Source: Rhodothermales bacterium (GTDB lineage Bacteria; Bacteroidota; Rhodothermia; Rhodothermales; VXPQ01). From it: DNA of 64,000 nt. The DNA lies in assembly GCA_022825385.1 (NCBI GenBank), contig JAJDWX010000030.1, forward strand, positions 78,555 to 142,554. Reading direction: 5' to 3'. The notes beneath the pieces were generated by a model. The model had not been told where the DNA came from. It saw only the letters and a list, made by a program, of their open reading frames with translations, and searched no databases. Shown one piece after another: positions 9,119 through 36,415 of the stretch (the first letter of the stretch is position 1; each line of letters begins with the position of its first letter). Position numbers and translations under genes: made by a program.

Positions 9119-10174
9119 TCAAGGCAACGTTTGCGTTTCGTCTACGGCGTCCGGCGGCGGCGGGGACAGCGCATGAATCCGTTCGACCCATGCGCCCAAC
9201 GCTGTGCCGCGAATCGATTCGTACAGGGGGCGAACCGCTTCCTGAAAGGGATCTTTGTCCGGCCGAACCACCGTTACGCCGGCCTCTTCGACGGCGCGCA
9301 ACGCCGCCTCGGTGGCTTCCCGCCAACGTTCCCGCTGATACGCGACAGACTCCGCTACGGCCTGCTCCACCCAGCCTTGCTGCCGATCCGTAAGTTTGTT
9401 CCAGGCGCGCGTTCCGATGAGCAAAACATCCGGCGGCGCAGCATGTTCGTCAAGAGTATAATAACGCGCCTGTTCGTAATGCCGGGACCCATAAAAATTG
9501 GGAGGATTATTTTCCGCGCCGTCCACGACCCCCTGCTGAAGCGCAGTGTACAGTTCCCCATAGGCCATGGGCGTGGCGTTCGCTCCAAGCATATTGATCG
9601 TCTGGATCGAAAGATTGCTTCGCATCACGCGAATTTTTAGCCCGGCCAGGTCGTCGGGCGATTCGACACGACGATCATGGATGTAAAAACTTCTGAAACC
9701 GGCGTCGTAATAGCACAGGCCGCGAATGCGGTACGGCTCGCCTTGCAACAAAATGGCTCGCCCCGCTTCGCCCTCAAGAATTTCCCAAAGATGCGCCTCG
9801 TCGCGAAACAAGTAAGGCAAACTGTACACCCCCATCGCCGGCACGAAATTCTCTATCACGCTCGACGCCACTTTGGCCATATCAAGCGTACCGAGCTGCA
9901 GCAATTCAACCGACTCGCGCTCGTTGCCCAACTGACCGCTCGGATATATTTTCACCCGCATGGCGCCATCGGACAACGCATGGAGACGATCCCCCATATA
10001 GGCCATCCCCTGGTGCACAGGATGCGTCGCATCGAGGATATGCGCCAAACGCAGTTCGACAACATCCTGCCGTTCGCGGCAACCGGTCCCGAAAAGCAAC
10101 AAAAAAACCGCCATCCCGAAAATCTTCAGGGAAGCCGCGTATCCGGGATATATGTTCTTCGACCGGCGAGCCAT
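9119..10174 (-). CDS. dctP: TRAP transporter substrate-binding lipoprotein (DctP)
   Basis: Lipobox LLFGTGC; RLAHILDATHPVHQGM...VKIYPSGQLGNERESVELLQLGTLDM; start reassigned from 10309 to 10174. Confidence 0.88.
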   Translation of the reverse strand: MARRSKNIYPGYAASLKIFGMAVFLLLFGTGCRERQDVVELRLAHILDATHPVHQGMAYMGDRLHALSDGAMRVKIYPSGQLGNERESVELLQLGTLDMAKVASSVIENFVPAMGVYSLPYLFRDEAHLWEILEGEAGRAILLQGEPYRIRGLCYYDAGFRSFYIHDRRVESPDDLAGLKIRVMRSNLSIQTINMLGANATPMAYGELYTALQQGVVDGAENNPPNFYGSRHYEQARYYTLDEHAAPPDVLLIGTRAWNKLTDRQQGWVEQAVAESVAYQRERWREATEAALRAVEEAGVTVVRPDKDPFQEAVRPLYESIRGTALGAWVERIHALSPPPPDAVDETQTLP

Positions 10175-18113: not shown

Positions 18114-21100
18114 ATGAAACTGGAAGATATCCGGGCCGGGCTTGTCCTGAACGGGGTCGCGCCGAACGAACCGGTTACGGCGCTGCATGTCGAGCCGCAC
18201 GGATCGGAAGCGTTGACGCTCGTCTATCGAACGGCCTCGGGCAACGTCGATAATACGCTGCTGTATCGGGACAGCGAGGCGGGGCTTCAGGTCGTCGAGC
18301 AAGGCCGTCCCTGGAGTTTCGAAGCGGACGGAGCCTTGTTCCGCCTGGCGTCCGAAGCGCAGCGCATTCGCCTGGCCTGCCTTTTCGATTCGATGCTGGC
18401 GGTGCACACGTCCCGCGTGGAGCCGCTCCCCCATCAGATTACGGCGGTCTACGAATCCATGCTGCCCCGGCAGCCGCTGCGGTTCCTCTTGGCCGACGAT
18501 CCGGGCGCCGGAAAAACGATCATGGCGGGGCTGCTGATCCGGGAACTGATCGCCCGCGGCGACCTGGAGCGGTGCCTGATCGTCTGTCCGGGAAGCCTGG
18601 TGGAACAATGGCAGGGCGAATTGCACGACCGGTTCCAGCTGCCTTTCGAAATCCTGACCCGCGACAAGGCCGAGGCGAGCCGGACAGGCAACTGGTTTCT
18701 GGAGAACGACCTGGCCATCGCCCGGCTCGACATGCTGGCGCGCAGCGAAGACGACCTGCTCCCGAAACTCGGCGCGAAGGATTGCCGATGGGACCTGGTG
18801 GTGTGCGACGAAGCCCACAAAATGTCCGCCTCGTTTTCGGGCGGCGAAATCAAATACACGAAACGCTACAAACTGGGACAATTGCTGTCCGCCGCGACGC
18901 GGCACTTCCTGCTCATGTCGGCCACGCCGCACAACGGCAAGGACGAGGATTTTCAACTTTTCCTGGGCCTGCTGGACGAAGACCGGTTCGCCGGGCGCTT
19001 TCGGGAAGGAACGCACAAGGCAGACGCATCCGACCTGATGCGGCGCATGGTGAAGGAAAAACTCCTGAAGATGGACGGCGCCCCCCTGTTCCCCGAACGC
19101 ATCGCCCATACGCTTCCTTACAAACTGTCTCCGCAGGAAGCAGCGCTCTATGAAGCAGTAACCCGCTACGTCCGCGAGGAGTTCAACCGGGCCGAGCGGC
19201 AGGCGAGCGGCAAGCGGCGCACCGTAGGATTCGCCCTCACCATTCTGCAACGGCGGCTGGCTTCGTCCCCCGCGGCCATTCGGCGATCCTTGCAGCGACG
19301 ACGCGAAAAACTGGAAGAACGCCTGCAGGATATCGAACGGGGCGTACAGGCCCCCGCCTCCGCTTCCCACCCTTCCCTCGCCTCCCTGTCCGAAGAAGCC
19401 TGGCGCGAAACGATGGAGGACGCGCCGGACGATGAGGTCAAGCAACTCGAAGAAGAAATCCTTGGACTCGGCACAGCGGCGCAAAACGTCGAGGAGTTGC
19501 AAACCGAAATCGTCATGCTCAAGGACCTGGAGGAGCGCGCAACCCGGGTCGCGCGAAGCGGCGAGGATATGAAGTGGCGCGAACTCTCCGGCCTCCTTCA
19601 GAAAATTCGGGTGGGGACGCTGCCGAGCGGGGGCAACGCGGGGGACGACGCAGGCATGGGGGCGCCCGGCGCGCCCGACGCGACGGCTCCCGGAAAAAAG
19701 ATTATCGTTTTCACCGAACACCTCGACACGCTGCATTATCTCCGGCGGCGCATCGCCACGCTGTTCGGACGCGAAGAAGCCATTGTCTGCATTCACGGAG
19801 GCATGAAACGCGAAGAACGGCTTGGGGCGCAGGAAGCCTTCCTGCACGACCCGAAGGCGCTGGCGCTGCTTGCGACGGACGCCGCCGGAGAGGGCATTAA
19901 CCTGCAACGGGCGCACCTGATGGTGAATTACGACTTGCCCTGGAACCCCAACCGGCTGGAGCAACGCTTCGGGCGCATCCACCGGATCGGGCAATCGGAG
20001 GTATGTCATCTGTGGAATCTGGTGGCCGCCGATACGCGCGAAGGCGACGTATACCAAACCCTGCTCGCCAAACTGGACACGGCGCGAGAAGCCCTCGGCG
20101 GGCAGGTGTTCGACGTGCTTGGTCGGCTGCATTTTGGCGGAAAATCCCTGAGCGACCTGCTGATCGAGGCCGTCCGGTACGGAGAGCGCCCGGACATCCG
20201 CAAGCGGCAAACCACGGCGATCGACCAGGCGCTCGACCGCGAGCGAATCCGGGACTTGCTGGAAGACCATGCGCTGGCCCCCGCCGCGATGGACGACCGG
20301 GAAGTGCGCCGCATCAGCGCAGACATGGAGCGGGCCGAAGTGCGCCGCCTGCAACCCCATTTCGTCAAGGCATTCTTCGAAGAAGCGTTCGAGCGGTTCG
20401 GCGGCGCGATGAAAGAGCGCGAACCAAAACGATACCAGATTCCCCGCGTACCCCGCGACGTCCGGCGACGCAATCCCCGCACCGGCGTCGGCAAGCCCGT
20501 GGCCCCGGCATACGAGCGCATCGCGTTCGACAAATCCCTTGCGGAGATACCAGGAAAACTCCCGGCGGCCTTTGTTTGCCCGGGCCATCCGCTGCTTGAC
20601 GCCGTCGTCGACCTGACGCTCGAACGCTACGGAGGCTTGCTCAAACAGGGGGCCGTGCTCGTGGACGAAAACGACGACGGCCTTGAGCCCCGCCTGCTGT
20701 TTTACCTGGAGCACGCCATTCGCAACCAGGGCCTCGACCGGACGGGCGCGTATCGAACGATCTCGAAACGCATGCTCCATGTGGAAATGGACGCCCGCGG
20801 ACGCCCCCTGAACATGGGCTACGCGCCATATCTGGACTATCGCCCCCTCGCCGAAGACGAACCTTCATGGCGACGCATTCTGGACCGACCGGAATGCGCA
20901 TGGCTCCAGGACAATCCGGAGGAAAAAGCGATAACCTATGCAATCCGGGAAATCGTTCCGGGGCATCTGGAGGAAATCCGGGAGGCCCGCCTTGCGCTGA
21001 TTGCAAAAACGCGGGCGGCAGTGCAGGATCGGCTTACCAAGGAAATAGCGCACTGGGACCGCCGCGCCGAAGAGCTCAAGGCGCAGGAGCAAGCCGGAAA

Positions 21101-21695
21101 ACAGGGCGCCCGGCTCAATTCGGGAGAAGCCCGCCGCCGGGCGGACGATATGCGGGCGCGGCTCGACAGGCGAGTTGAGGAGCTGAACCTGGAGGCGGTC
21201 ATCTCGCCGCTTCCGCCCATCGTTCGGGGCGGCGTACTCGTCGCGCCAAAGGGCTTGCTGGACCGGATGCAGGGCCGCGCGACCGAAACGAGCGATCCAA
21301 AGCAAGACAAGATGGCCATTGCCGCGAAGGGCCGCGAGATCGTCATGGATATCGAACGGAAGAAAGGCTACGACCCAACCGACCGGGAATTCGACAAACT
21401 CGGCTACGATATCGAGAGTCGCATGCCGGATACGGGGCAGCTCCGGTTCATCGAGGTAAAGGCGCGGGAAGCGCAGGCCGACACGATCACCGTTACCCGA
21501 AACGAAATTCTGTATTCCCGAAACAAGCCGGATCGGTATATCCTGGCCCTCGTGCTGTACGAAGGCGACATCGGAAGCGGCGCGCATACGGTGCATTACG
21601 TCCGGCGGCCCTTCGAACGGGACCCGGACAGCAACGCATGCAGCGTGAATTACTCCATGGCGGCCCTCCTCGCGCTGGGGGAAAAGGTTTCGTAG
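18114..21695 (+). CDS. SNF2/DISARM DrmD-like helicase with DUF3883-like C-terminal domain
   Basis: [13 protein letters not shown] (Walker A), [41 protein letters not shown]; C-terminal [20 protein letters not shown]. Start reassigned from 17673 to ATG 18114. Confidence 0.9.
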   Translation: [1193 protein letters not shown]

Positions 21696-21760
21696 GGGCA
21701 TTTTGTCAAGGGATTTGTCAAGGGAAATTTCAAGCGTTTTGTCAAGCAGGGAAAGCGGCT

Positions 21761-22129
21761 ATGGCGTATGGAGACGCGGCGGGGAACCCGGAAGTCCGCG
21801 CCATGGACATAACCGAGGAAGTTACCGGGGAAGTCACCGAGGAAGTCGCCGGGGAAGTCACCGAGGAAGTTACACGGGTCGCTCCTGTAGATCGCTTGTT
21901 GCAGGAGATGTCTGGCGAAATGACCCGGCGACAAATCCAGGACGCCGTAGGCATAAAGCACGAGAATCATTTCCGAAAGGCGTACCTCGTTCCTGCGCTC
22001 CAGGCGGGCTGGATCGAAATGACCATCCCGGACAAGCCGCGCAGCAGCAAGCAGCGATATCGGCTCACGCCCGCCGGCGCCGAGCGGCGGAAACAGGGGA
22101 GAAAAAACAGGACGAACCCGGCCGGTTAA
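21761..22129 (+). CDS. Small winged-helix protein resembling the C-terminus of AlbA_2/RecG-like regulators; possible remnant
   Basis: EEVTGEVTEEVAGEVTEEV linker, then RLLQEMSGEMTRRQIQDAVGIKHENHFRKAYLVPALQAGWIEMTIPDKPRSSKQRYRLT. Confidence 0.55.
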   Translation: MAYGDAAGNPEVRAMDITEEVTGEVTEEVAGEVTEEVTRVAPVDRLLQEMSGEMTRRQIQDAVGIKHENHFRKAYLVPALQAGWIEMTIPDKPRSSKQRYRLTPAGAERRKQGRKNRTNPAG

Positions 22130-22380: not shown

Positions 22381-23259
22381 ATGATTTACCACCTGCCGAC
22401 CGTAAGGAGCAACCGACAAGGCTTCGAGTGCCTCGGGGAACTCGCCAAGGCCACCAAGGGTCTATTTGCCGACCGGCTCGAACTCGACATGTCCCGGGTT
22501 TCGTTTTTAGACGCCAACATGGCCGCCCCTCTGGGGGCAGTGCTTACCCGGGCTACCGACGAATTCAATATTGTAGAAATCGTCGCTGTTCCTCGCGGAG
22601 TGGAACGCGTCCTCTGTAAAAACGAGTTTCTAACCGGTTTTGGGTACGATTCGCTCGAGGATACCAATAATACGACAATGCCTTTTCGTCGCTTGCGCCT
22701 CAGGGACGAAGGCGCGTTCGAAAAATACATCCATTGGGAAATGAGCGGTAAAGGCATCCCGAAAATGTCCAAGAGGGCAAGTTGGATATTCAAGAAAAAA
22801 GTTTTTGAGGTCTATCAGAATGCCGTCGTTCATTCCGAATCGGAACTCGGCGTTTTCGTCTGCGGTCAATTCTTCCCGCAACAGCATCGCCTCGACTTCA
22901 CCCTCGCCGACGCGGGTATCGGAATCCGCGATGCCGTCCGCCGCTATTTCAATGACTCCCGCATCGGTTCTGTCCCGGCTCTCAAGTGGGCGCTCAAGCC
23001 ATATCACACGACGAAACGCGGCCCCCACCCCGGCGGACTGGGCCTTGATTTCCTTCAAAGATTCGCCCGCCTCAATGGAGGCAAGATTCAAATCGCTTCC
23101 CGATTCGGTTTTTACGAATTTCACGACGGCAACGAAACCTTTGCGAAGATGGCGACAGACTTCCCCGGAACGGCCGTAACGATTGAGATCAATACGAGGG
23201 ACGATAGCGTATATTACCTGGAAAGCGAGATCAACGCAAACGACCTTTTTAAGCCATGA
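22381..23259 (+). CDS. STAS-like domain fused to GHKL (HATPase_c) ATPase
   Basis: RLELDMSRVSFLDANMAAPLGAVL (STAS-like); KVFEVYQNAVVHSES (N box), LADAGIGIRDAV (G1), HPGGLGLDFLQRF (G2). Start could also be 22315. Confidence 0.8.
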   Translation: MIYHLPTVRSNRQGFECLGELAKATKGLFADRLELDMSRVSFLDANMAAPLGAVLTRATDEFNIVEIVAVPRGVERVLCKNEFLTGFGYDSLEDTNNTTMPFRRLRLRDEGAFEKYIHWEMSGKGIPKMSKRASWIFKKKVFEVYQNAVVHSESELGVFVCGQFFPQQHRLDFTLADAGIGIRDAVRRYFNDSRIGSVPALKWALKPYHTTKRGPHPGGLGLDFLQRFARLNGGKIQIASRFGFYEFHDGNETFAKMATDFPGTAVTIEINTRDDSVYYLESEINANDLFKP

Positions 23260-23615
23260 ATCAACCTGTCACGGTCCGAGTATTCGACATCGTCGGCGGC
23301 CCCCTCTGCGTATCCGCCAACGACGGTCAGCTTCTGCACGACAAGATCGCTCCGCTTTTGAAAGCAGGAATGCCGGTTGTCCTTTCTTTTGGGCGGGTGG
23401 AAATCCTTATCTCTGCGTTTCTGAACGCGGCGATAGGCCAACTATACGGCGATCTTTCCGAGAATCGCATCCGCGATTTGCTGTCCGTTCGCGATTTGGC
23501 CACGGACGACCTCGACATGCTTGAGCATGTCGTCGAAAACGCCAAGCGGTATTTCAGCCGGCCTGAGGATTTTGACCGGGCATGGCGCGAGGAACTGGGA
23601 GATGAAGAAGAATAA
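23256..23615 (+). CDS. STAS-like DUF4325-type protein
   Basis: VVLSFGRVEILISAFLNAAIGQLYGDLS; start overlaps upstream stop (ATGA). Confidence 0.8.
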   Translation: MNQPVTVRVFDIVGGPLCVSANDGQLLHDKIAPLLKAGMPVVLSFGRVEILISAFLNAAIGQLYGDLSENRIRDLLSVRDLATDDLDMLEHVVENAKRYFSRPEDFDRAWREELGDEEE

Positions 23616-24156
23616 GGCGCATCGTCTGACGGCCTATTCGTTCAGCAAGAGCGAAACGTTCTTGCTTGACGCCAACGTATGGCTCTACCTGTATCCACCG
23701 CCATCTGGAAGGAAACGTCCTTTCGTGCAACAATACAGCGATGGCCTGAAGTCCATGCGTATTGCTGGCGCACAATTGATCATGGACGTTATGGTGCTCA
23801 GTGAGTACCTGAATACCTATGCTCGCATTGAATGGAGGGCGCTGCATCAGACTCGGTATCCTCAATTTAAATCATTCCGCAAATCAGCGGCTTTCAAAAC
23901 GGTTGGCAACGGCGCAGCCTCTTCCGTACGCTCCATGCTCAAGCTCTGCACCTGTCGCGACCACCCTTTTGCTGGGGTCGATATCAAACAAGTACTGGAT
24001 GGTTTCGCAGCGGGAACAACTGACTTCAACGATAGCCTGCTTGCCGAAACGTGCCGACGCCATGGCTGGAAACTGGTTACGAATGATAGCGACTTTACTT
24101 TCGGCGGCATTGAGGTTCTGACGACAAACCCGAAACTTCTGGCCGCTTGCCCATGA
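23602..24156 (+). CDS. PIN-domain protein (putative RNase)
   Basis: [55 protein letters not shown]; overlaps upstream CDS by 14 nt. Confidence 0.82.
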
Positions 24157-27100
24157 CAGCGCCCCCCAAAAAACTCATCGAAGTAGCCCTGCCGCTGGAC
24201 GCGATCAACAAGGCGTCGGCGCGGGAGAAATCCATTCGGCACGGGCATCCGAGTACGCTGCATTTGTGGTGGGCGCGGCGGCCCCTTGCGGCGGCGCGGG
24301 CCGTGATCTTTGCGCAGATGGCGGACGACCCGTCCGAATATGCGGACGAACTGCTTGCGGACCCGGCGACGCGGCGCAAGGCGGAGGAGGCGCTCCAAGA
24401 ACGCCTTGCGGCGTGGCAAGCAAAGCAGACGCGGACGGACGATGCGGCAGATACGGAATCGTTGGTTGGCGATGCGGCAGATACGGAATCGTTGGTTGGC
24501 GAAGCGGCAGGTACGGAACCCTCGGTTGGCGAAGCGGCAGATACCGAACCCGCGATGGGCGAGGCGGCGGGAGCGAAACCGACGCTCGAAGAGGCGGCGG
24601 CGGACGTCGAGCGGGCGCGGTTGTTCGGTCTGCTGGAGGAACTGGTTACGTGGGAGAACACGACGAACGAAGCCGTGCTTGCGCGGGCGCGGAAGGAGAT
24701 TCGGCGGAGTTGGCGGCGGACGTGCCAGCGCCATGCGGACGACGCGCCCGCCGCTACGCTTTTCGACCCGGATCGGCTGCCTGCTTTTCACGATCCCTTC
24801 GCGGGGGGGGGGGCTATTCCGCTTGAAGCGCAGCGCCTTGGACTGGAGGCCCACGCCAGCGATTTGAACCCGGTGGCAGTCTTGATCAACAAGGCGATGA
24901 TCGAGATTCCGCCGAGGTTTGCGGATCGCGCGCCGGCGAACCCGCAGGCGCGGGCGGACGGCTCGCTGCTCGGGCGGACCTGGAAAGGGGCGCAAGGGCT
25001 GGCGGAGGACGTGCGCTACTATGGCGAGTGGATGCGCGAGGAGGCGGCGCGGCGCATCGGGCACTTGTATCCGAAGGTTGAGGTTACGGCGAAGACGGTT
25101 CTTCGGCGCCCGGATTTGAAGCGGTACGAGGGACGCAAGTTGACGGTGATCGCATGGCTCTGGGCGCGGACGGTGAAGAGCCCCAATCCGGCGTTCGCGG
25201 AGGTGGAAGTGCCGCTTTGTTCGACGTTCATGCTATCTACGAAGAAGGGTAAGGAGGCGTACGTGGAGCCGGTAATAGAGGGACGCGGGTATCGTTTCGA
25301 GGCGCGGACGGGGGCGCCAGAGGATCTGGAGGCGGCGAAAAAGGGGACGAAGCTGGCGCGGGGAGCGAATTTCAAGTGTTTGATGAGCGAGATGCCGATG
25401 GCGGGAGATTATATCAAGGCGGAAGGCAAAGCCGGGCGAATGGGCGCGCGCTTGATGGCCATTGTCGCCGAGGGAGACCGCGGGCGCGTGTATCTGAGTC
25501 CAACGAAGGAGCATGAGGCGGTTGCGAGTCAAGCGACGCCGGAATGGGAGCCGGATGTAGCAATACCGCCAGATCGACGTTCAATGTTTACGCCGCTTTA
25601 CGGGCTTACCCACTTCAAGCACCTTTTCACCTCCCGCCAGTTGACCGCTTTGACGACGTTTTCGGACCTGGTGGCGGAGGCGGCGGAGCGGGCGCGGGAG
25701 GATTTTCTTGCCAGCGAAAGGGACGCGGCCGCTGCGCTCAGCGGAAAGCAGGATGGCCCGGGCGCAGGGGATGTTTCCTTTCCCGCGGGCGCTTCCCCGG
25801 CGGCGAATGCAATGCCTCCTTTCGGTTCGTACGCAGGCAATCCGCAAAGCGAGGCCAACGCACGCCCCCTGCGCGAGGGCGGCAACGGCGCAAGAGCCTA
25901 TGCCGAGGCGGTGGGGGTGTATTTGGCGTTTGCCATATCGAAAGTCGCAAATATAGGCTCATCGATTACTTCTTGGATGAATGATCGCAGTGCTTTTCGG
26001 GAGACGTTTGCCCGACAAGCGATACCAATGGTGTGGGATTACGCCGAGGCGAATCCGTTTACAAATGCTGGTGGCAGTTTAGACACAGCCCTTGAAAAAG
26101 GCTCCATGGTGATCAATGAGTTTCCCGCACTAAACGCTGGATCGGTGAAACAATTGGATGCAGCAGACCAAACAATCAGCACCGACAAAATGATTTCCAC
26201 CGATCCGCCCTACTATGACAACATTGGCTACGCAGACCTGTCCGATTTTTTCTATGTCTGGATGCGACGCTCGTTGAAATCGACATTTCCCGATCTGTTC
26301 TCTACGCTGGCCGTCCCTAAAGCCCAAGAACTGGTCGCTACGCCCTACCGGCACGGCAGCAAGGACCAAGCGGAGACCTTCTTCCTGGACGGAATGACCC
26401 ACGCGATGCGTCGCCTCACCGAACAGGCGCATCCCGCCTTTCCCGTAACCATTTACTACGCCTTCAAACAAGCGGAACGGAAGGGCAAATCGGGAACGGC
26501 CAGCACGGGCTGGGAAACCTTTCTGGATGCCGTCATTCGGTCGGGTTTCTCTGTAACAGGCACTTGGCCTGTTCGAACAGAAAGTAGTGGTCGTATTCTC
26601 GGACAGGGCACCAATGCCCTCGCCTCCTCCATCGTGCTCGTGTGCCGCCGGCGGCCCCAGGACGCTCCGCTGGGCGCCCGCCGCGAATTCAGCGACGCCT
26701 TGCGCAAGGAACTGCCCGCCGCGCTCGCCCATCTGCAATCCGGCAACATTGCCCCCGTAGACCTGGCCCAGGCCGCCATCGGACCCGGCATGGCCGTATT
26801 CACCCGCTACGCGAGGGTGCTCCACACCTCCGGCGAAACCATGACCGTACGCGAAGCGCTGGCCATGATCAACGAAGTGCTCGACGAAGCGCTCAGGGAG
26901 CAGGAAGGCGACTTCGACCGGGACAGCCGCTGGGCGCTTGCCTGGTTCGAGCAGCACGGCTTCGCCGAAGGGGCGTACGGCGCCGCCGAAACCCTTTCCA
27001 AAGCCAAGAACACGAGCATTGCGGGCATCGTGGAGGGCGGCATCCTGGTCGCGAAAGAAGGCAAGGCGCGCCTTTTGCGCCCGGACGAACTGAGCGAACG

Positions 27101-27398
27101 CTGGGACCCGCTCGCCGACGAGCGGCTCTCGGTATGGGAGGCGGCGCATCACCTGGTGCGCGCGCTGGAGACGGGCGGCGAGATGGCGGCGGCGGAGATC
27201 GTCCGTCGCCTCGGCGGCGTAAGGGACGCGGCCCGCGAACTGGCCTACCGGCTCTACGCGCTGTGCGAACGCAAAAAACGCCCGGCGGAAGCCCTCTCCT
27301 ACAACGCCCTCGTCCAAAGCTGGCCGGAAATCGCCCGCCTCGCCCGCCAGGACCCCACCGCAGAGCAAGGCGACATGTTCGGGGAAAGGGAAACATAA
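24153..27398 (+). CDS. DUF1156-domain DNA methyltransferase
   Basis: N-terminal [50 protein letters not shown]; motif [18 protein letters not shown]; motif [24 protein letters not shown]. Confidence 0.9.
24440..24589 (+). repeat. Five 30-bp tandem in-frame repeats inside the methylase gene
   Basis: Units at 24440, 24470, 24500, 24530, 24560; first two identical; encodes (D/E)AA(D/G)TE(S/P)x(V/M)G. Confidence 0.9.
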
Positions 27399-27439
27399 TG
27401 CCCCTGTAACAATTGCATTCGGAAAGACCATCCGCCGCC

Positions 27440-28585
27440 ATGTCCCCGGAAAAAACGCATAGCCCCCTGCATCTCCCGAGCCTCTCGATCAAAGGCTTTC
27501 GGGGGATCAACGACCTGTCTATCTCAAGACTGGGCCGCGTAACGTTGCTGGCCGGAAAAAACAGCGTGGGCAAAACAACGGTGCTGGATGCCGTCCGGGT
27601 GTATGCGGCGCGGGGTCGCCGCGCTGCCCTGTCCGAGGTGCTGGAACGTCACGGGGAAATTGCCGAATTGACGGACAGCCAAGGGGGAAAAACGGTCGGT
27701 CCGCATATAGAAGCCATCTTCCACGGACGCAACGCCTCGGAAAAAGCCTCCTTTTCCATAGGCTCGAACGGCAATTCGGATCAACTCGCCTGCGAAGCGA
27801 TTCCCCCGGAAAATAACACAGCCGAGGTGTACGGATCGTACCCGGCCGACTTTTTCGAGGCTCCGGTACGAATGCTCAGGCTTGCCTTGCAAAACGAGGA
27901 ATACGCCATTCCCTGGTATTTTTCTCCCCTCGCGCTCAGCTTCAACATCGCGCGAAATCGTCGGATATACCAATATGTATACGGCGCATCCATGGAGCAC
28001 AAAATGCCTGCGCAAATATTGTGCGAATCCGTGGGGCCGGAACGGTTGGAAAATGATCGAGTCGTAGCGCTATGGGATGCGATCGCCTTGACCGACGTGG
28101 AAAAAAAGGTGGTGGACGCGATACAGCCTGTGGTCGATAAGGAAATAGAGCGCATTGCAATAATTGGAAATGTGGACCACGAACGGCGAGTATGGATCAA
28201 AATTCGAGGACAAGCCTTTCCTGTCCCTCTCACCAGTTTTGGCGACGGGGCCTTGCGCTTTTTTGGCGTCGCTTTGCTGCTATTAAACAGCTCAGACGGC
28301 TTTTTGCTCATTGACGAAGCGGAAAACGGCATACATCATTCCGTGCAACGCCACTTCTGGCGTATGGTCCTGAATGCAGCCATCGAGAACAACGTGCAAG
28401 TGCTGGCGACGACGCACAGTTTCGACTGCATACGCGGCTTTGCGCAAGCCGTGGCCGAACGCGAAGACGACCACGGCGCGCTCGTCCGCATCGAACGGAA
28501 AGACGACGAGATATGGGCGGTGGAATATTCGGAAAAGAATCTCAAAGCCATAGCCAATAAACAAATGGAGTTCGAAGTGAGGTAG
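27440..28585 (+). CDS. OLD/RecF-like AAA ATPase
   Basis: LSIKGFRGINDLSISRLGRVTLLAGKNSVGKTTVLDAV (Walker A), DGFLLIDEAENGIHHSVQ (Walker B), VLATTHSFDCI. Confidence 0.88.
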   Translation: MSPEKTHSPLHLPSLSIKGFRGINDLSISRLGRVTLLAGKNSVGKTTVLDAVRVYAARGRRAALSEVLERHGEIAELTDSQGGKTVGPHIEAIFHGRNASEKASFSIGSNGNSDQLACEAIPPENNTAEVYGSYPADFFEAPVRMLRLALQNEEYAIPWYFSPLALSFNIARNRRIYQYVYGASMEHKMPAQILCESVGPERLENDRVVALWDAIALTDVEKKVVDAIQPVVDKEIERIAIIGNVDHERRVWIKIRGQAFPVPLTSFGDGALRFFGVALLLLNSSDGFLLIDEAENGIHHSVQRHFWRMVLNAAIENNVQVLATTHSFDCIRGFAQAVAEREDDHGALVRIERKDDEIWAVEYSEKNLKAIANKQMEFEVR

Positions 28586-28590
28586 ATGTT

Positions 28591-29205
28591 ATGCCTGACA
28601 AAAATTATATCCTTCTCGTTGAAGGACAGGATGACAAGCACGTCGTCCGGCACCTGTGCGATTCCGATAAAGCCATGCCCAAACTCTGGATTCGGGACAA
28701 GGGCGGAATAGAGGAGGTACTTGAGGACATCGGCTTGGCGATTTTGACGCCGGGCTGCAAAGCCATAGGCATACTGGTAGACGCAAATGACAATCCAGAC
28801 AATCGTTGGGATGCCGTGAAAAACAGGCTCCGGGAAGAGGGGGTCATAGCGCCTTCCCAACCTGATCCAACCGGTACTATTATCGAGCATCAGCCGCGCA
28901 TCGGCGTCTGGCTCATGCCCAACAATGAGCATCCCGGCGAACTGGAGAATTTCGTTGCGGAAATGATTCCGGGAGACGATCCGGTATGGCCGTTAGCCGA
29001 AGGCTATATCAACAGCATCCCTGAGCAGGATCGGAAATTTACCGAAAAGAAAAAGCCGCGAGCAAAGGTTCATGCCTGGCTCGCAACCAGGGAAGAACCC
29101 CGGCGAATGGGCGTCGCCATCCGCGCCGGAGACCTCGACGCAACCGGCCCGCTCTGCACGGCGTTTTTGACATGGTTGCGGCGCCTCTTCCAGCCGTCAG
29201 ATTGA
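28591..29205 (+). CDS. DUF3226 / TOPRIM-like protein paired with the AAA ATPase
   Basis: YILLVEGQDDKHVVRHL, AIGILVDANDNPDNRWDAVKNRL; 5-nt gap from upstream CDS. Confidence 0.8.
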   Translation: MPDKNYILLVEGQDDKHVVRHLCDSDKAMPKLWIRDKGGIEEVLEDIGLAILTPGCKAIGILVDANDNPDNRWDAVKNRLREEGVIAPSQPDPTGTIIEHQPRIGVWLMPNNEHPGELENFVAEMIPGDDPVWPLAEGYINSIPEQDRKFTEKKKPRAKVHAWLATREEPRRMGVAIRAGDLDATGPLCTAFLTWLRRLFQPSD

Positions 29206-29251: not shown

Positions 29252-30058
29252 ATGAGCAATCAGGAGTTCCAGGAACGCAGCCAAAGCCGCATGATACGGT
29301 TCGACGAGCTTCCGACGCCAAACACGGAGCCGGGCGACCTTGACCATGCGCTGACGCGCCGCTTTCTGCGCGAGGAAATCGTCGAGGAAGAAGGCGTAAC
29401 GGGCCATGCCGCCCGCAAACTTCGCCTCCTGGCCGAGGACGACGAAGGAAAAACGCGGCTTACCCTCTCGGGCGTTCTCTTGTGTACGCGCAACCCCCAG
29501 GAGTGGCTGCCGCACGCCTACATACAAGCCGTCAGTTACGTGAGCGAACGCACCGACGCAAACTATCAGGTAGACGCCCGCGACATCGGCGGGCCGCTGG
29601 ACGAACAAGTCGCCAACGCGCTTCATTTCTTGCGCAGGAACATGTTCATCCGCGCGACAAAAGAACTTGAGCGCCTGGAAATTCCGCAATTCAGCGAGCG
29701 CGCCGTGTTCGAAGCGCTGGTCAATGCAGTCGCCCACAGAGATTATTCCATGGCGGGTTCGCGCATACGCATGCACATGTTCACGAATCGCCTCGAACTG
29801 TACGTGCCCGGCGCGCTGGCCAATACCCTCACCCCCGACGCCTTGCACTTGCGACAGGCCAATCGCAACGAACTGATTGTGTCGCTTCTGGCGCGATGCC
29901 CTGCCCCGGCGGGCGTCGGAAGAAAATACCTGATGGATCGCCGGGGCGACGGCGTACCGATCATTCTGCGGGAAAGCCGGGAATTATCGGGCCATTCTCC
30001 CGAATATTCGTTGCTTGGCGAAAGCGAACTCCGCCTTGTCATCCCGTCTGCGCAGTAG
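29252..30058 (+). CDS. RecG-like/HATPase_c_4 ATP-binding protein lacking an AlbA_2 N-terminal domain
   Basis: IRFDELPTP...RFLREE..., FSERAVFEALVNAVAHRDYSMAGSRIRMHMFTNRLELYVPGALANTLTPD. Confidence 0.75.
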   Translation: MSNQEFQERSQSRMIRFDELPTPNTEPGDLDHALTRRFLREEIVEEEGVTGHAARKLRLLAEDDEGKTRLTLSGVLLCTRNPQEWLPHAYIQAVSYVSERTDANYQVDARDIGGPLDEQVANALHFLRRNMFIRATKELERLEIPQFSERAVFEALVNAVAHRDYSMAGSRIRMHMFTNRLELYVPGALANTLTPDALHLRQANRNELIVSLLARCPAPAGVGRKYLMDRRGDGVPIILRESRELSGHSPEYSLLGESELRLVIPSAQ

Positions 30059-30198: not shown

Positions 30199-33100
30199 AT
30201 GGCCATTACGAACCGCGAACGAGTAGACAAGGCGATGGAACTGCTTCGGCAGGGACTCGCCCCGTATGTGGCGCGCGAATTTCTTAGCGAAAAAGGCAAG
30301 GCCATCCCCCCGGAAAATTTCGAACGCCTTGCGAGGGACCGGAATCTTGCGGACCGGCCCGTCGACGAATGGGACGTCGCGGCGCTCCTGAAACTGATGA
30401 TGTCTACCTGGCGGGAAGTGTTTCGCATGACGCTGGGCCATGCCGAACGAAGCATGGTTTCGGAGTTGCTCGAATGGCGCAACCGATGGGCGCATCAACG
30501 GCCTTTCTCCAGCGACGATACGGATCGCATGCTGGATTCGGCGGTCCGGCTCCTCACCGCCGTCTCCGCCACGCAGCAAGCGGACGAAATCGAGCGCATG
30601 AAGAAAGAGCTGCGGCGCACGATCTACGACGAACAGGTGCGCTCCGAAAAACGCAAGGCGGGGCGCTCCCTGATCGAAACCGCCGCCGCCCGGGGACCGC
30701 TCAAGCCATGGCGAGAAATCGTAACGCCGCACAAGGACGTGGCGAGCGGGCGATACCAGCAGGCGGAATTCGCCGCCGACCTGTGGCAAACCCACCTTGG
30801 CGAAGGCCCGGACGAATACCGCGACCCGAAGGAATTCTTCCGCCGCACCTTCCTTACCGAAAGCCTGACGCGCCTGCTTACGCAATCCGTAAAGCGCATC
30901 GCGCAGGGCGACGGCGATCCGGTGGTGCAACTCCAGACCAACTTTGGCGGCGGCAAAACGCACGCCATGCTGGCGCTGTACCACCTGTTCTCCGGCGCGG
31001 CTTCCGGGGAACTTCCGGGCGTGGACGACTTGCTGAGAGAAGCCGGCCTCCCGGACCTGACCGAGGCAAAACGCGTCGTGCTGGTAGGCAACAAAATATC
31101 CCCCGGCAACCCGTACCCGAAAGCTGACGGAACCGTGGTGCGCACGCTGTGGGGCGAACTGGCCTGGCAACTGGGCGGCAAGGAAGCCTACGAACGCATC
31201 CGGGCCGACGACGAAAACGCCACCAATCCCGGGGATCGGCTCCGCGAATTGTTCAACGCATACGGCCCATGCATCGTGCTGATCGACGAATGGGTCGCGT
31301 ATGCGCGCCAGCTCCACGACGAGAATAACCTGCCCGGCGGCGACTTCGAAACCCAGTTCACGTTTGCGCAAGCGCTCACGGAATCCGCCAAACTCGCGGA
31401 CCGTTGCCTGCTCGTCATATCCCTCCCGGCGTCGGATACGGGAAGTTCTGCCCACGCCGAAGCGGACGACATCGAGGTGGGCGGGGTGCGGGGCCGGACG
31501 GCGCTGGACCGACTGGGCAGCGCCATAGGCCGCGTGGCGGCGGTATGGCGCCCGGCCAGCGCCGAAGAAAGTTTTGAGATCGTGCGCCGCCGCCTGTTCG
31601 AACCGCCAAGCGACGCGGAAGCCTTCAAGCAGCGGGACGTAACGGCGCGGGCCTTTGCAGACCTGTACGGCAGCCAGCGCGGCGAATTTCCGTCCGAATG
31701 CAGCGAAGCGGAGTACGAAAAACGGATCCAGGCCGCGTACCCCATCCACCCCGAAATTTTCGACCGGCTCTACGGCGACTGGTCCACCCTGCTGAAATTC
31801 CAGCGTACCCGCGGCGTATTGCGCCTCATGGCCACGGTCATCCACTCTCTGTGGGAATCGGGAGACAGGAACCCGCTTATTTTGCCGTCCATGATTCCTA
31901 TGGGCGACCTTCGCGTACGCCCCGAACTGACCCGCTACCTGACGGATAACTGGGTTCCGATCATCGAAACGGATATAGACGGAGCGAATGCGCTGCCGCT
32001 CAGGATCGACGCCGACAACCCGAACCTCGGCAAACTGAACGCTGCGCGGCGCGTGGCCCGCACGATTTTCCTCGGGTCGGCTCCCGTAACGCATGCGTCG
32101 CAACGAGGGCTCGAAGACCGCCGGATCAAACTTGGCTGCGTGACGCCCGGAGAATCGCCCGCCGTTTTCGGGGACGCCCTGCGCCATCTTACGAAAGAAG
32201 CCACATACCTGTATCAGGACGGTTCACGGGTATGGTATTCGACCCAGCCTACGGTGACCAAACTGGCGAAGGACCGCGCCGCCGAACTGGAGCGCAACCC
32301 GGACAAGGTCCACGCCGAGCTGGAAAAACGCTTGCGCGGCGCATTGCGAGACCAGGGGGGATTTTCCCGCATACACGCCTTGCCGCGCACACCATCGGAC
32401 GTACCGGAAGACGCGGCGAGCCGCCTGGTCGTGCTGTCCGCAGAAGATCCGCACAACAAAACGCCCGAAAGCGAGGCGATAGGGAAGGCCCGCGCCCTCC
32501 TCGAAATGCGGGGCAACGCCCCCCGGCTTTACCGGAATACGCTCGTCTTTCTTGCCGCAGACCGGGTGCGCCTTCAGGATCTGTACGGCGCCGTCTGCCG
32601 GTATCTTGCCTGGGAATCCATCCTGAACGAACGGGAGGAACTCAACCTGGACCCGCGCCAGACGAAGCAGGCCGAAGCCCAGAAGGCATCCGACGACGAA
32701 AGCGTACGCATGCAACTGCCCGAAACGTGGCAATGGCTGTTGGTCCCCACGCAAAACGCCCCCGACGCGGCGGTCGAATGGAAGGCCCTGTCGCTGAAGA
32801 GCGCCGCCGGGCTGGCGAAGCGGGCATACAAGCGGCTTGTAAGCGAAGATATGCTGGTGGGCGCGCTGGGCCCCGCCATTCTGCGCAAGCATATGGACGA
32901 AGTGCCCTTGTGGCGGGGGAACCATGTCGAGGCCCGGCAACTTGCGGAGGATTTCGCGCAATACATTTATCTGCCCCGGCTGCATGACGTTTCGGTGTTG
33001 CTGGAAGCGATAGGCAAAGGGCCGGGCCGCCTTACCTGGATGCAGGACGCCTTCGCCGTCGCGGAGCGCTACGACGAGGAAGCCGGGCGCTACGAGGGAC

Positions 33101-33528
33101 TTTGCGCGGGCGAGCATGTCGCCATAACGGAAGGAAGCGGCAGCCTCCTCGTGAAGCCGGAGGTCGCCCTGCGGCAACTGGAAGAGGAAAAAGCGCCGCA
33201 GCCGCCCACGGGGCCAACAGAAGCAAACGGCGACGCGGGAGCAGGAGAAAAAGGAAATGGACTCCCGCCAAAGGGGCCTCCGCCCGATCCGCGCCCCACT
33301 CGCTACTACGGCTCCGTGCAACTGGACGCCCACCGGGTGGGCCGGGACGCCGGGCAAATCGCCGAAGAAGTGATTGCCCACCTTGCGGGCATCGTCGGCG
33401 CCCGCGTCAAAATCACGCTGGACATCGAGGCGGACATTCCTTCGGGCGCCTCGGAACAAATCGTGCGCACCGTAACCGAAAACGGCCATGCGCTGAAGTT
33501 CCGGGATCAGGGATTCGAGCCGGAGTAG
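30199..33528 (+). CDS. DUF499 ATPase with N-terminal Swt1-like HEPN domain
   Basis: N-terminal ELLEWRNRWAHQRPF (RX4H); Walker A VVQLQTNFGGGKTHAMLALYHLF; RLRELFNAYGPCIVLIDEWVAYARQL; FQRTRGVLRLMATVIHSLW. Confidence 0.88.
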   Translation: MAITNRERVDKAMELLRQGLAPYVAREFLSEKGKAIPPENFERLARDRNLADRPVDEWDVAALLKLMMSTWREVFRMTLGHAERSMVSELLEWRNRWAHQRPFSSDDTDRMLDSAVRLLTAVSATQQADEIERMKKELRRTIYDEQVRSEKRKAGRSLIETAAARGPLKPWREIVTPHKDVASGRYQQAEFAADLWQTHLGEGPDEYRDPKEFFRRTFLTESLTRLLTQSVKRIAQGDGDPVVQLQTNFGGGKTHAMLALYHLFSGAASGELPGVDDLLREAGLPDLTEAKRVVLVGNKISPGNPYPKADGTVVRTLWGELAWQLGGKEAYERIRADDENATNPGDRLRELFNAYGPCIVLIDEWVAYARQLHDENNLPGGDFETQFTFAQALTESAKLADRCLLVISLPASDTGSSAHAEADDIEVGGVRGRTALDRLGSAIGRVAAVWRPASAEESFEIVRRRLFEPPSDAEAFKQRDVTARAFADLYGSQRGEFPSECSEAEYEKRIQAAYPIHPEIFDRLYGDWSTLLKFQRTRGVLRLMATVIHSLWESGDRNPLILPSMIPMGDLRVRPELTRYLTDNWVPIIETDIDGANALPLRIDADNPNLGKLNAARRVARTIFLGSAPVTHASQRGLEDRRIKLGCVTPGESPAVFGDALRHLTKEATYLYQDGSRVWYSTQPTVTKLAKDRAAELERNPDKVHAELEKRLRGALRDQGGFSRIHALPRTPSDVPEDAASRLVVLSAEDPHNKTPESEAIGKARALLEMRGNAPRLYRNTLVFLAADRVRLQDLYGAVCRYLAWESILNEREELNLDPRQTKQAEAQKASDDESVRMQLPETWQWLLVPTQNAPDAAVEWKALSLKSAAGLAKRAYKRLVSEDMLVGALGPAILRKHMDEVPLWRGNHVEARQLAEDFAQYIYLPRLHDVSVLLEAIGKGPGRLTWMQDAFAVAERYDEEAGRYEGLCAGEHVAITEGSGSLLVKPEVALRQLEEEKAPQPPTGPTEANGDAGAGEKGNGLPPKGPPPDPRPTRYYGSVQLDAHRVGRDAGQIAEEVIAHLAGIVGARVKITLDIEADIPSGASEQIVRTVTENGHALKFRDQGFEPE

Positions 33529-33768: not shown

Positions 33769-34830
33769 TTGATCGGAAAACGACTCAAAATCGCCCGCGC
33801 CGCCTCGGGGCTTTCCCTGCGCGCCCTGTCGGACAAAATCGGCAACCTCGTGAGCGCGCAGTCCATCAGCTACTATGAGCGCGACATGGCCACGCCCGGT
33901 TCGGACGTGCTCCTTGCCCTTGCCGACGAACTCGACGTTTCTCTGAATTATCTCGTCGGCGACCAGGACATGACGGTGGAGCGCATCGATTTTCGCAAAA
34001 AGAAAATCACCCGAAGACGCGAAGTGGCGCGCGTCGAGGCCACCATCCTGCACGACCTGGAACGCTACCTTGCCGTCGAAAGCATCCTCGGCATGCCGGG
34101 CTTCGACTGGGACAAGCCGCGCGAAGCCCCCTACCCTGTCGCCAGCGATCTGCGGGAAGCCGATCGGGCCGCGCACCTTTTGCGCAACGCCTGGAACCTT
34201 GGACTGGACCCTGTCCCGAACCTCACGGGAATTCTGGAGGAGCACGGAATCAAGGCGCTGTCGATAGACCTTACGAACAATATCGCCGGGCTGACGGCGC
34301 GCGTACGGCGGGCAAACGAAGACATCGTATCCGTGATGATCGTAAACGGCAAAGAGCGCGGCGAGCGGCAACGCTTTACCATCGCGCACGAACTCGGCCA
34401 CCTGATGCTGGACGTAGCCCCTGATATAGACGAAGAAAAGGCTGCGCATCGCTTCGCAGGGGCCTTCCTCATGCCGGCAGAAATGGTATGGACCGCCGTA
34501 GGCAAACATCGCCACGCCATCGGCTACAGCGAACTTTTCGCCCTCAAGAAGCTTTTTGGCGTAAGCGTGCAGGCCCTTGCGTACCGATGCAAGGACCTCG
34601 GCGTCTTTAACGACGCGTTGTTCCGCAACCTCTTGCGGGATTTTTCCCGCCGAGGCTGGCGCAGCCCCCCTTACGAGGAGCCATTCCCCTTGCCCGCGGA
34701 AAAGCCGCAACGCTTCGAACGCCTGTGCTTTCGCGCCTTGTCCGAAAACGCGGTTTCGGAACCCAGGGCCGCCGAACTGCTGGGTATATCGGTGCACGAA
34801 TTGCACTGCCAAATGGCGGAACCGCCATGA
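33769..34830 (+). CDS. XRE-family HTH + ImmA/IrrE metallopeptidase
   Basis: KRLKIARAASGLSLRALSDKIGNLVSAQSISYYERD; RFTIAHELGHLMLD; KAAHRFAGAFLMP. Confidence 0.9.
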   Translation: MIGKRLKIARAASGLSLRALSDKIGNLVSAQSISYYERDMATPGSDVLLALADELDVSLNYLVGDQDMTVERIDFRKKKITRRREVARVEATILHDLERYLAVESILGMPGFDWDKPREAPYPVASDLREADRAAHLLRNAWNLGLDPVPNLTGILEEHGIKALSIDLTNNIAGLTARVRRANEDIVSVMIVNGKERGERQRFTIAHELGHLMLDVAPDIDEEKAAHRFAGAFLMPAEMVWTAVGKHRHAIGYSELFALKKLFGVSVQALAYRCKDLGVFNDALFRNLLRDFSRRGWRSPPYEEPFPLPAEKPQRFERLCFRALSENAVSEPRAAELLGISVHELHCQMAEPP

Positions 34831-34836
34831 CAGCAA

Positions 34837-36012
34837 TCAAGCATCCGAAACGGATCCGTCTATATCCTGATCGGGAAGAATAGCATCGCCGCGAGATTTC
34901 AGTTCCTGGTTCAGGCGAGCCAGCGGTTCCGAGAACGCCCCCTCCAGTTTTACAATATGCTCGCACAGCCATTCGATTCTCGACGGCCAATTTTCTTCGT
35001 TGAACCCGTCGCAGGATTGCAAATAGCTGATTCGGCTTGCTTTCTTTGCATAGTAGGATTGCCAATTCATTTCAGCACCAAAACGCTTTTCAATTTCCTT
35101 TCTATTCCGTTTGAGCCGATCAAATATCCATTTGTTCTCATTCTTCGACCGAGTAAGATAAAGGTCCACGCACACCGCTCCCTTGGAAGAGCTCATCCTG
35201 TACTCGCAGTCGGCCATCACATCGGTCCCCCTGACCAGCAGGGATCTTGTGGACGGACTAATGTTCGCATACCGCGCTACGCCTCGCCTTTGGAGCTCCT
35301 CCAGGGTCCTCGTCCAGAATTTGATTCGCCTTCCCTCAATGCCCTTCTGCGTGTCCTTTGACGATTTTTCCTCGGATTCCTTTTTCACCATCCCGATCAT
35401 GTAATCCGCCGCTTCGGGCACCGGAATAATCTGCTGCAAATCGACCAGAATCTCCTCGCCCAAACTGTAAGGCGACGTGCGAAAGCACTGCACCCGGATT
35501 CCGTGTCCAATCAGCCAAAGCACGGTCGCCGTAACCTCCTTGCGAAAGTTCGCCGCAACCAGTATTAGCCGCTGATTATTGCCCTCGTTCAGCACCATGT
35601 CGTCGATATCTTCGGCCCCAAGAAAATCGCACAGATTCACCACGGCGTTCTCTCGGTCAGACCACTTGTCGAGATAATCCTGATAAATTTTGACGATCTC
35701 TGCCTTCTTCAGGGTGGAGCAGTAGGCCACATACTTGAGCCCCTGCCATACGACGTCGCGGCCCGAATCGTCAAGTTTGTTCTCAATGACCACCAGTTGG
35801 CCGTCCTTATCCATAGCAAGGAGGTCAAGGCGCTCGTTCGTATCCGCAAAGCCGGCAAACTCCTTCTGGACGATGAGCAACTTTTCGCCCAGCGCATCCG
35901 GCTTATCAGCGATCCATTCCTGGAGATGGTCCCTTTCGCGAAGATTCAAATCGGCAAAGCGGCGTTTTTCAAGGGGAACGAGCCGATTCTCGGAGACTTC
36001 TACTTTGAACAT
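34837..36012 (-). CDS. DUF4268-type protein with NucS/PD-(D/E)XK-like N-terminal nuclease domain
   Basis: NERLDLLAMDKDGQLVVIENKLDDSGRDVVWQGLKYVAYC; C-terminal KNENKWIFDRLKRNRKEIEKRFG... Confidence 0.8.
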   Translation of the reverse strand: MFKVEVSENRLVPLEKRRFADLNLRERDHLQEWIADKPDALGEKLLIVQKEFAGFADTNERLDLLAMDKDGQLVVIENKLDDSGRDVVWQGLKYVAYCSTLKKAEIVKIYQDYLDKWSDRENAVVNLCDFLGAEDIDDMVLNEGNNQRLILVAANFRKEVTATVLWLIGHGIRVQCFRTSPYSLGEEILVDLQQIIPVPEAADYMIGMVKKESEEKSSKDTQKGIEGRRIKFWTRTLEELQRRGVARYANISPSTRSLLVRGTDVMADCEYRMSSSKGAVCVDLYLTRSKNENKWIFDRLKRNRKEIEKRFGAEMNWQSYYAKKASRISYLQSCDGFNEENWPSRIEWLCEHIVKLEGAFSEPLARLNQELKSRGDAILPDQDIDGSVSDA

Positions 36013-36052
36013 CCTGCTTGTCCTTTTACCGTGTGGTGATTCTTGTGGTGCG

Positions 36053-36415
36053 TTATTGCGTCCGAGCCGGCATGCGTCCATGTCCGGCTGCCGCAAGTTC
36101 TCGCGAGACAGCGCGGGGCGCAAGCGTGGAATCCGATTTCACAGGGACGGGCGGCGCATGAATGCCAAGCCGATCTTCGACCACGGCCAAGCGCTTGTCT
36201 ATGTTGGCCAACTTGTCGTTAACTTCCTTGAATTGCTCGTTCACCGTCTGGAATTGTGTGTTCACCGTCTCGAATTGCCTGTCCATGGATTCTTCCAGCC
36301 GGTTCAGGTCGCCATGCAGCAAAACGTATGGGAAATACGCGATAGCCATCACGGCGGCCAACGCGCCAACGGCTTGCCATATCCCTTTCCAAGGCCATGC
36401 GTTTATGTTTTTCAT
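36053..36415 (-). CDS. Small single-TM coiled-coil protein, family copy A
   Basis: MKNINAWPWKGIWQAVGALAAVMAIAYFPYVLLHGDLNRLEESMDRQFETVNTQFQTVNEQFKEVNDKLANIDKRLAVVEDRLG. Confidence 0.6.
   Translation of the reverse strand: MKNINAWPWKGIWQAVGALAAVMAIAYFPYVLLHGDLNRLEESMDRQFETVNTQFQTVNEQFKEVNDKLANIDKRLAVVEDRLGIHAPPVPVKSDSTLAPRAVSRELAAAGHGRMPARTQ

Follow-up and report, generated by a model that had tools for sequence, protein, structure and literature searches.

Known systems related to the locus

VapKSC, described by Chambers et al. (EMBO J, June 2026; PMC13373217), is a bacterial suicide switch in which DNA damage prompts a kinase to release an RNA-cleaving toxin from the hold of its antitoxin: VapK is a STAS-GHKL kinase, VapS a STAS antitoxin whose C-terminal helix reaches the active site of its partner, and VapC a PIN toxin. 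For the Escherichia system, VapC was found to be toxic, VapS to be the antitoxin and the operon to protect against phage; the VapS2VapC2 complex has been solved (PDB 9Z7O), the VapS phosphomimic S48E no longer binds VapC, and the aromatic residue F54 of VapK, a protein that was insoluble, is the candidate for ssDNA binding (PMC13373217). A second pair of this general kind, CapK/CapS, regulates immune operons (PMC13373217). Hma (Payne et al. 2021; PMC8565338) is an anti-virus system, DUF499-centred and related to Type-1 BREX (PMC12839542).

The Hma operon and its embedded genes

In the window (the whole 64,000-nucleotide stretch of DNA that was analysed) the three genes hmaA, hmaB and hmaC follow one another in that order on a single strand, each scoring above 1000 bits with PADLOC. 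The locus differs from Hma as described in bearing two cargo insertions: a GHKL/DUF4325/PIN trio, named here vapKSC on the evidence given in the next section, at the hmaA/hmaB site, and PDC-M38A/B together with a truncated Schlafen-type gene at the hmaB/hmaC site. The genes are as follows.

hmaA, 18117..21695, + strand: SNF2-type helicase with a C-terminal NOV_C/PD-(D/E)XK-like domain (PADLOC HmaA, 1527 bits; Pfam SNF2-rel_dom, Helicase_C, NOV_C)
small ORF, 21638..22129, + strand: between hmaA and vapK; Fic-like_C winged helix only (PF21247, E=1e-26), remnant-like
vapK, 22381..23259, + strand: STAS-GHKL kinase without an N-terminal HTH, ending in TGA
vapS, 23256..23615, + strand: DUF4325 STAS-like antitoxin of 119 aa, with predicted phosphosite S53 and C-terminal helices
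vapC, 23602..24156, + strand: PIN-domain RNase toxin, by family assignment
hmaB, 24153..27398, + strand: DUF1156 adenine-methyltransferase-like protein (PADLOC HmaB, 1495 bits; DUF1156, E=4e-26)
PDC-M38A, 27413..28585, + strand: AbiLi-like OLD-type ABC ATPase, second embedded module (PADLOC PDC-M38A, E=2.6e-76)
PDC-M38B, 28591..29205, + strand: DUF3226 protein (PADLOC, E=1.2e-39; Pfam DUF3226, E=1.5e-54)
HATPase_c_4 protein, 29252..30058, + strand: Schlafen-type protein without the AlbA_2 nuclease domain (Pfam)
hmaC, 30199..33528, + strand: HEPN_Swt1-DUF499 ATPase (PADLOC HmaC, 1095 bits; Pfam HEPN_Swt1, E=3.5e-32, and DUF499, E=1.4e-29)

With vapKSC lying between hmaA and hmaB of an Hma locus, two known systems are thus stacked. 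The vapS ATG at 23256 shares the sequence ATGA with the vapK stop (23259), the vapC ATG at 23602 falls 14 nt inside the end of vapS, and the hmaB ATG at 24153 shares ATGA with the vapC stop (24156), all of which an earlier, sequence-only reading had placed correctly to the base; these overlaps suggest that vapK, vapS, vapC and hmaB are translationally coupled. Upstream of the trio, 685 nt separate hmaA from vapK, and vapKSC may therefore have its own promoter.

The small ORF shows 49% identity to residues 443-519 of a full-length Schlafen-type protein (L035:1061-2644), and the HATPase_c_4 protein aligns only with the middle of its full-length relatives. HmaB bears the motifs DPFAGGG (motif I) and DPPYYDN (motif IV). 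Its gene also contains a G11 tract at 24803-24813; phase variation of hmaB through this tract was considered and not adopted, and the tract is left as a mere observation because G/C tracts of ten or more are not rare in the genome, in which G10 gives 119 overlapping matches, many of them from a few long tracts.

Identity of the trio

The trio is very probably a VapKSC operon, of abortive-infection/toxin-antitoxin type, carried as cargo in the restriction-like Hma operon and working by the published switch. The sequence-only reading could match the block to no named defence system, a view superseded by the assignment of the trio to VapKSC and, through PADLOC, of the methylase to Hma; its proposal of a PIN RNase governed by a SpoIIAB/SpoIIAA-like switch between a GHKL kinase and a STAS protein coincides with the published VapKSC mechanism (PMC13373217). 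The trio shares with VapKSC the K-S-C gene order, a kinase without an HTH, and conservation of the antitoxin Ser/Thr and of the PIN acids, and the sequence matches of its VapS and its VapC to the solved Escherichia proteins are significant. It differs in its place between hmaA and hmaB, where stop and start codons overlap, in a VapC that is only distantly like that of Escherichia, and in a VapK that belongs to an Hma-associated clade.

The window VapK begins at its STAS domain and has no N-terminal HTH. Its Pfam matches to HATPase_c (E=2.8e-4) and STAS_2 (E=0.004) are each under the gathering score; the GHKL motifs are intact (N-box E143/N147/H151, D177/G179 and G219/G221), the N and G boxes being near-invariant in relatives, and the AF2 model (pLDDT 90) matches SpoIIAB-like GHKL (TM to target 0.57-0.69) and TM1442/SpoIIAA-like STAS folds. 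F42 is the candidate counterpart of Escherichia F54, and its column holds F or W in 96 of about 101 VapK proteins. VapS matches both Pfam DUF4325 (E=1.9e-13) and Escherichia VapS (PDB 9z7o_A, E=1.9e-13), S53 corresponding to S48 in the alignment; this predicted phosphosite is Ser or Thr in 99 of 100 relatives. The predicted VapS model has C-terminal helices at 83-101 and 103-113, and Foldseek returned no significant match to it, RsbV/RsbS being weak and 9Z7O absent among the fold matches. VapC matches PIN in Pfam (E=2e-8) and Escherichia VapC (PDB 9z7o_C, E=7.9e-5), D23 corresponding to D28 in the alignment; its acids are D23, E68, D141, D144, D162 and D164, and the PIN acids are 98-100% conserved among relatives.

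Relatives were gathered by a genome-contig profile search with a tight VapK set (A3), which gave at least 80 loci, skewed towards near relatives. Of the 103 distinct related loci among the matches listed, 92 have the trio in K-S-C order, and several of the remainder are truncated by contig ends. The pairwise distances of VapK, VapS and VapC covary (r=0.88-0.94; the highest value in permutations was 0.21). The retained order and the covarying distances together indicate that the arrangement is not due to chance.

Three other identities were rejected. SpoIIAB/SpoIIAA (PDB 1TID, 1TIL) resemble the trio in their GHKL kinase and STAS folds and, by homology via VapS, in the position of the phospho-serine, but the kinase in the window has a STAS domain of its own, and the third gene encodes a PIN protein, in the window and in relatives, and no sigma factor. 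VapBC shares the PIN toxin, whereas the gene adjoining PIN here encodes a DUF4325 STAS protein, accompanied by a kinase, and no VapB-type antitoxin. CapK/CapS share the kinase-STAS switch logic; their target, however, is a promoter, while that of the window trio would be a toxin, and the window VapK has no HTH and its VapS (119 aa, DUF4325 only) no wHTH. The same features bear on the suggestion that the trio contains no toxin and is an anti-sigma-type partner switch regulating transcription of the Hma genes, as CapK/CapS do for immune operons. The SpoIIAB/SpoIIAA-like folds would accord with such a switch, but given that both DNA-binding domains are missing and that the third product is a PIN protein whose acids are intact in nearly every locus, it is very improbable.

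Recurrence and distribution of vapKSC

vapKSC also follows hmaA and precedes hmaB in six other loci (L057, L058, L059, L060, L077 and L128), and at this site it was found in five phyla. An hmaA/vapK ATGA junction is present in all six of these copies and a vapC/hmaB ATGA junction in five (L057, L058, L060, L077 and L128); the VapK/VapS overlap of the window is not retained in these five, which have short gaps there instead. The VapK proteins embedded in Hma lie in one supported clade (10 rows, SH-aLRT 95). A second VapK clade comes from copies set between pglX and brxHI of BREX type III, and further vapKSC copies are found in type I RM operons, before hsdR.

The sequence-only reading had regarded wide occurrence of the trio away from defence genes as telling against its proposal. 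The trio is indeed autonomous: among the matches listed, the majority of copies lie outside Hma, BREX III and type I RM, and copies adjoin the housekeeping genes for rRNA dimethylase, cytidylate kinase, THF dehydrogenase and BipA, or are carried on plasmid P5 of Deinococcus gobiensis and on viral contigs; the window VapK as lone query gave no match in viral contigs. A link to defence genes nevertheless persists, at least 19 of the 103 loci, again among the matches listed, falling within or adjoining operons of Hma, BREX III or type I RM. Conversely, vapKSC was absent from the sampled other Hma loci of the phylum Bacteroidota (12 whose contig carries both hmaA and hmaB) and from seven of seven plasmid Hma loci, the Hma census beyond the window's phylum being based on the VapK search and plasmids. 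In the HmaB tree the vapKSC-bearing loci do not group together.

VapC-type PIN proteins have RNA as their substrate. This bears on the earlier idea of a single four-gene system made up of the trio and the DUF1156 methylase, with self marked by the methylase and unmarked targets attacked by the PIN protein. The ATGA overlap of vapC and hmaB would suit such a system, but hmaB accompanies hmaA and hmaC in Hma loci that have no trio, and most trios have no hmaB. Because vapKSC occurs mostly without hmaB, and sampled Hma loci mostly without vapKSC, the methylase is assigned to Hma rather than to the trio; it is HmaB, the protein first called a "DUF1156 methylase". The distribution largely refutes the self-marking system, which is, like the transcriptional switch, very improbable.

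On another view, vapKSC is an autonomous toxin-antitoxin or defence cassette, a passive passenger that is functionally unconnected with Hma and occupies a permissive hmaA/hmaB site. The many copies outside Hma fit this view, as does the unrelated cargo that occupies the same site elsewhere (Septu PtuAB, an NsnA-like ATPase, a Schlafen-type protein and PDC-S02). Against it, the Hma copies retain start/stop overlaps on both flanks of vapKSC, and the Hma and BREX III VapK clades are separate, each spanning several phyla, which points to a long history of inheritance together with each host system. A passive passenger has somewhat less than an even chance.

Proposed mechanism and significance

In the resting cell, VapS would keep the PIN RNase VapC inactive. 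ssDNA arising from phage replication, DNA repair or the helicase-nuclease of Hma itself may activate VapK, which would then phosphorylate VapS at S53; phosphorylated VapS would release VapC, and free VapC would cut RNA, its presumed target, and arrest the cell. Hma (the helicase-nuclease HmaA, the methylase HmaB and the DUF499 ATPase HmaC) would serve as the first line and VapKSC as a suicide backup, the stop/start overlaps tying synthesis of VapC to that of VapS upstream and of HmaB downstream. Judged from its position, the balance tips slightly towards VapKSC cooperating with Hma. It is tempting to go further and to regard the VapKSC lineages as specialised, host-system-specific backup effectors, one clade for Hma (helicase/methylase), one for BREX type III (pglX/brxHI) and others placed before type I RM hsdR, with VapK reading ssDNA from the host helicase-nuclease; this broader proposal is tentative, and rather less than evenly likely.

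The trio itself has already been described as VapKSC; its host-specific embedding is the new part, though neighbours belonging to Hma may already figure in Dataset EV3 of Chambers et al. Likewise, the recurrence of vapKSC at the hmaA/hmaB site in five phyla goes beyond the published accounts of VapKSC and Hma cited here, unless that dataset holds it. The locus unites two recently described systems in a single operon, a combination that reappears, start/stop junctions included, in several phyla. Should the coupling prove functional, it would amount to a two-stage design, first restriction and then suicide on ssDNA, and the gene junctions of Hma and BREX III would be places to seek further backup effectors. 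For annotation, the assignment names a block that PADLOC-DB 2.0 (2023) leaves unlabelled.

Identity of the trio and its host operon

VapKSC, a three-gene operon for a CapK-like STAS-GHKL kinase, a STAS antitoxin and a VapC-like PIN toxin, has been described in 289 instances, of which 36% have another PADLOC immune gene no more than 10 kb away, and protects about 2-log against phage Bas42 (Chambers et al., EMBO J, June 2026, PMC13373217). The trio in the window is thus already known, and its locus is a new VapKSC member. Judged by profile matches, the host operon is a Hma system (PMC8565338).

Genes of the trio and of the host operon in the window
18117-21695, HmaA, helicase-nuclease; SNF2, Helicase_C and NOV_C domains (PADLOC, 1527 bits)
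22381-23259, vapK, kinase; Pfam HATPase_c and STAS_2, both under gathering score
23256-23615, vapS, antitoxin; Pfam DUF4325
23602-24156, vapC, toxin; Pfam PIN
24153-27398, HmaB, methylase; Pfam DUF1156 (PADLOC, 1495 bits)
30199-33528, HmaC, ATPase; HEPN_Swt1 and DUF499 (PADLOC, 1095 bits)

On re-reading of the window every coordinate of the earlier sequence-only reading was borne out, and the VapKSC match shows its kinase/STAS switch to be right in kind; its remark that it could not match the block to a named defence system is superseded by matches to the Escherichia VapS-VapC complex 9z7o (PMC13373217). In sequence searches VapS matches chain A (E=1.9e-13), with S53 aligned with phosphosite S48, and VapC matches chain C (E=7.9e-5), with D23 aligned with D28. 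Of 100 VapS relatives, 99 carry Ser (60) or Thr (39) at the phosphosite. The PIN acids of VapC are 98-100% conserved across relatives, the GHKL N and G boxes of VapK are near-invariant, and F or W is retained at the column of F42 in the VapK STAS domain, a likely candidate for the counterpart of Escherichia F54. In the AF2 model of VapK (pLDDT 90) the GHKL part matches SpoIIAB and the STAS part TM1442/SpoIIAA; VapS is predicted with high confidence, with C-terminal helices.

vapK and vapS are joined by an ATGA overlap, vapS and vapC by a 14-nt overlap, and the end of vapC overlaps the start of hmaB at 24153 via ATGA, which suggests that translation of the trio and hmaB is coupled.

Proposed switch

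The best-supported reading of the trio is a phospho-switch: VapS would hold VapC inhibited until VapK, activated by ssDNA, phosphorylates VapS at S53, and the freed VapC would then arrest the cell. For Escherichia VapKSC, VapC toxicity and VapS antitoxin function have been demonstrated, VapS S48E fails to bind, and phage protection is lost with D28A, S48A and F54A; ssDNA as the VapK trigger is inferred there also (PMC13373217), and is presumed for the window locus too. In L085, a near-identical sibling MAG, vapS and vapC are intact, but vapK (L085:281-896) has lost most of its GHKL domain, and its reading frame, to an internal deletion. Kinase loss would leave VapC locked, so this single case fits the switch model.

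Distribution and gene contexts

VapK relatives were gathered from 395 genomes of the window's phylum, plasmids, phages, viral contigs and 84,980 species genomes, the last contributing at least 80 VapK loci. All three genes occur in the same order in 92 of 103 deduplicated VapK loci, and vapKSC loci span 17 named phyla, two of them archaeal. VapK, VapS and VapC distances correlate (r=0.88-0.94; permutation maximum 0.21), as expected of one co-inherited unit.

The neighbourhood search proposed in the sequence-only reading gave a divided answer: 19 loci lie in Hma, BREX III or hsdR contexts, a minimum given the small probe set (HmaA/B/C, PglX, BrxHI, PglZ and HsdR), while many further copies lie elsewhere, some adjoining housekeeping genes; plasmid P5 of Deinococcus gobiensis carries one of these. 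Hma context accounts for eight loci, the window among them, seven with hmaA and hmaB on opposite sides of the trio; in L085 hmaB lies on the one flank that the contig covers. In seven BREX type III loci vapKSC is downstream of pglX, followed by brxHI where the contig reaches; the order is clear in L035, L062, L063, L066 and L069 and partial in L068, and in L064 a second pglX-like gene precedes brxHI. In four loci hsdR is the next or next-but-one gene, with hsdS also upstream in two (L092, L101).

On the VapK tree the Hma copies fall within one clade (10 rows, SH-aLRT 95) from Rhodothermota (the window, assigned there through L085, a sibling with 97% identity), Elusimicrobiota, Acidobacteriota, Pseudomonadota and Verrucomicrobiota, plus one Gemmatimonadota copy; two members (L065, L084) have no visible Hma locus. 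The Gemmatimonadota locus, L056, looks like a decayed Hma locus, with an HmaA remnant (9383-9598, first 72 residues only) upstream of intact vapKSC. BREX III copies group apart from these, in a mixed clade. Label changes number 2 for Hma (6.9 in shuffles) and 3 for BREX III (6.8). No description of such repeated, host-specific insertion of vapKSC into Hma and BREX III operons was found in the article texts consulted. ATGA overlaps join hmaA to vapK in six relatives and vapC to hmaB in five; L059 has an extra AAA ATPase gene between vapC and hmaB. The HmaA tree nearly unites the vapKSC-bearing loci, whereas the HmaB tree does not group them, so HmaB and cargo may recombine independently of each other.

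The hmaA/hmaB interval as a cargo slot

Hma is classed as a DUF499-centred, Type-1 BREX-related system in a 2026 survey, whose text notes auxiliary nucleases at these loci, PIN RNases less often, and mentions neither GHKL nor STAS (PMC12839542). Among 15 other HmaB-bearing genomes of the window's phylum, the same contig carries hmaA and hmaB in 12; vapKSC occupies the slot in none of these 12. In this phylum the slot is either empty or taken up by Septu PtuA/PtuB, an NsnA-like ATPase, a Schlafen-type protein or PDC-S02. On plasmids it is empty in Meiothermus, Methylomonas and Rhodococcus, and filled by ATPase + HNH in Rhizobium and by other genes in Gloeocapsa, Chlorohelix and Bradyrhizobium. 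Given these varied contents, the slot takes several different cargoes, of which vapKSC is one. In the Chlorobia-type Hma loci L167-L181 it is occupied by Septu PtuAB, in some of them together with an NsnA-like ATPase.

On the slightly likelier reading, the Hma helicase-nuclease may feed or share the ssDNA trigger, and VapKSC would form a second line behind Hma; a link from restriction to later suicide was suggested for CapKS by Chambers et al. (PMC13373217). The rival reading, that vapKSC is a passenger without functional tie to Hma, found as it is in many other settings, is a serious possibility, at somewhat under an even chance.

Further features of the window locus

Unlike that of the ATGA-overlapping relatives, the window's hmaA-vapK junction is broken by 685 nt including a small winged-helix ORF. 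Tandem repeats of 12 bp and 24 bp (21702-21878) lie directly 3' of the hmaA stop, before and within this ORF. The segments 21638-22129 and 29252-30058, in different Hma slots, correspond respectively to the winged-helix end and the middle of full-length Schlafen-AlbA_2/HATPase_c_4 proteins (e.g. L035:1061-2644); the AlbA_2 nuclease part is absent. A PDC-M38A/B pair (OLD-type ATPase + DUF3226; 27413-29205) is embedded between hmaB and hmaC, and directly 3' of hmaC are an XRE-HTH + Peptidase_M78 (ImmA/IrrE) gene (33769-34830) and a convergent DUF4268 gene (34837-36123).

An 11-G homopolymer (24803-24813) lies in frame within SAM-binding motif I of hmaB. L085 carries 12 G there (2500) and has a frameshifted hmaB; the tract does not exceed 6 G in any other HmaB examined, and G10+ tracts are not rare in the window's genome. 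Slipped-strand phase variation could explain the tract, as could decay or an error of assembly. About four tandem 30-bp repeats (24440-24568) also lie in the 5' part of hmaB; they encode a 10-residue repeat in the protein, placed between DUF1156 and the methylase core, and their number is higher in L085.
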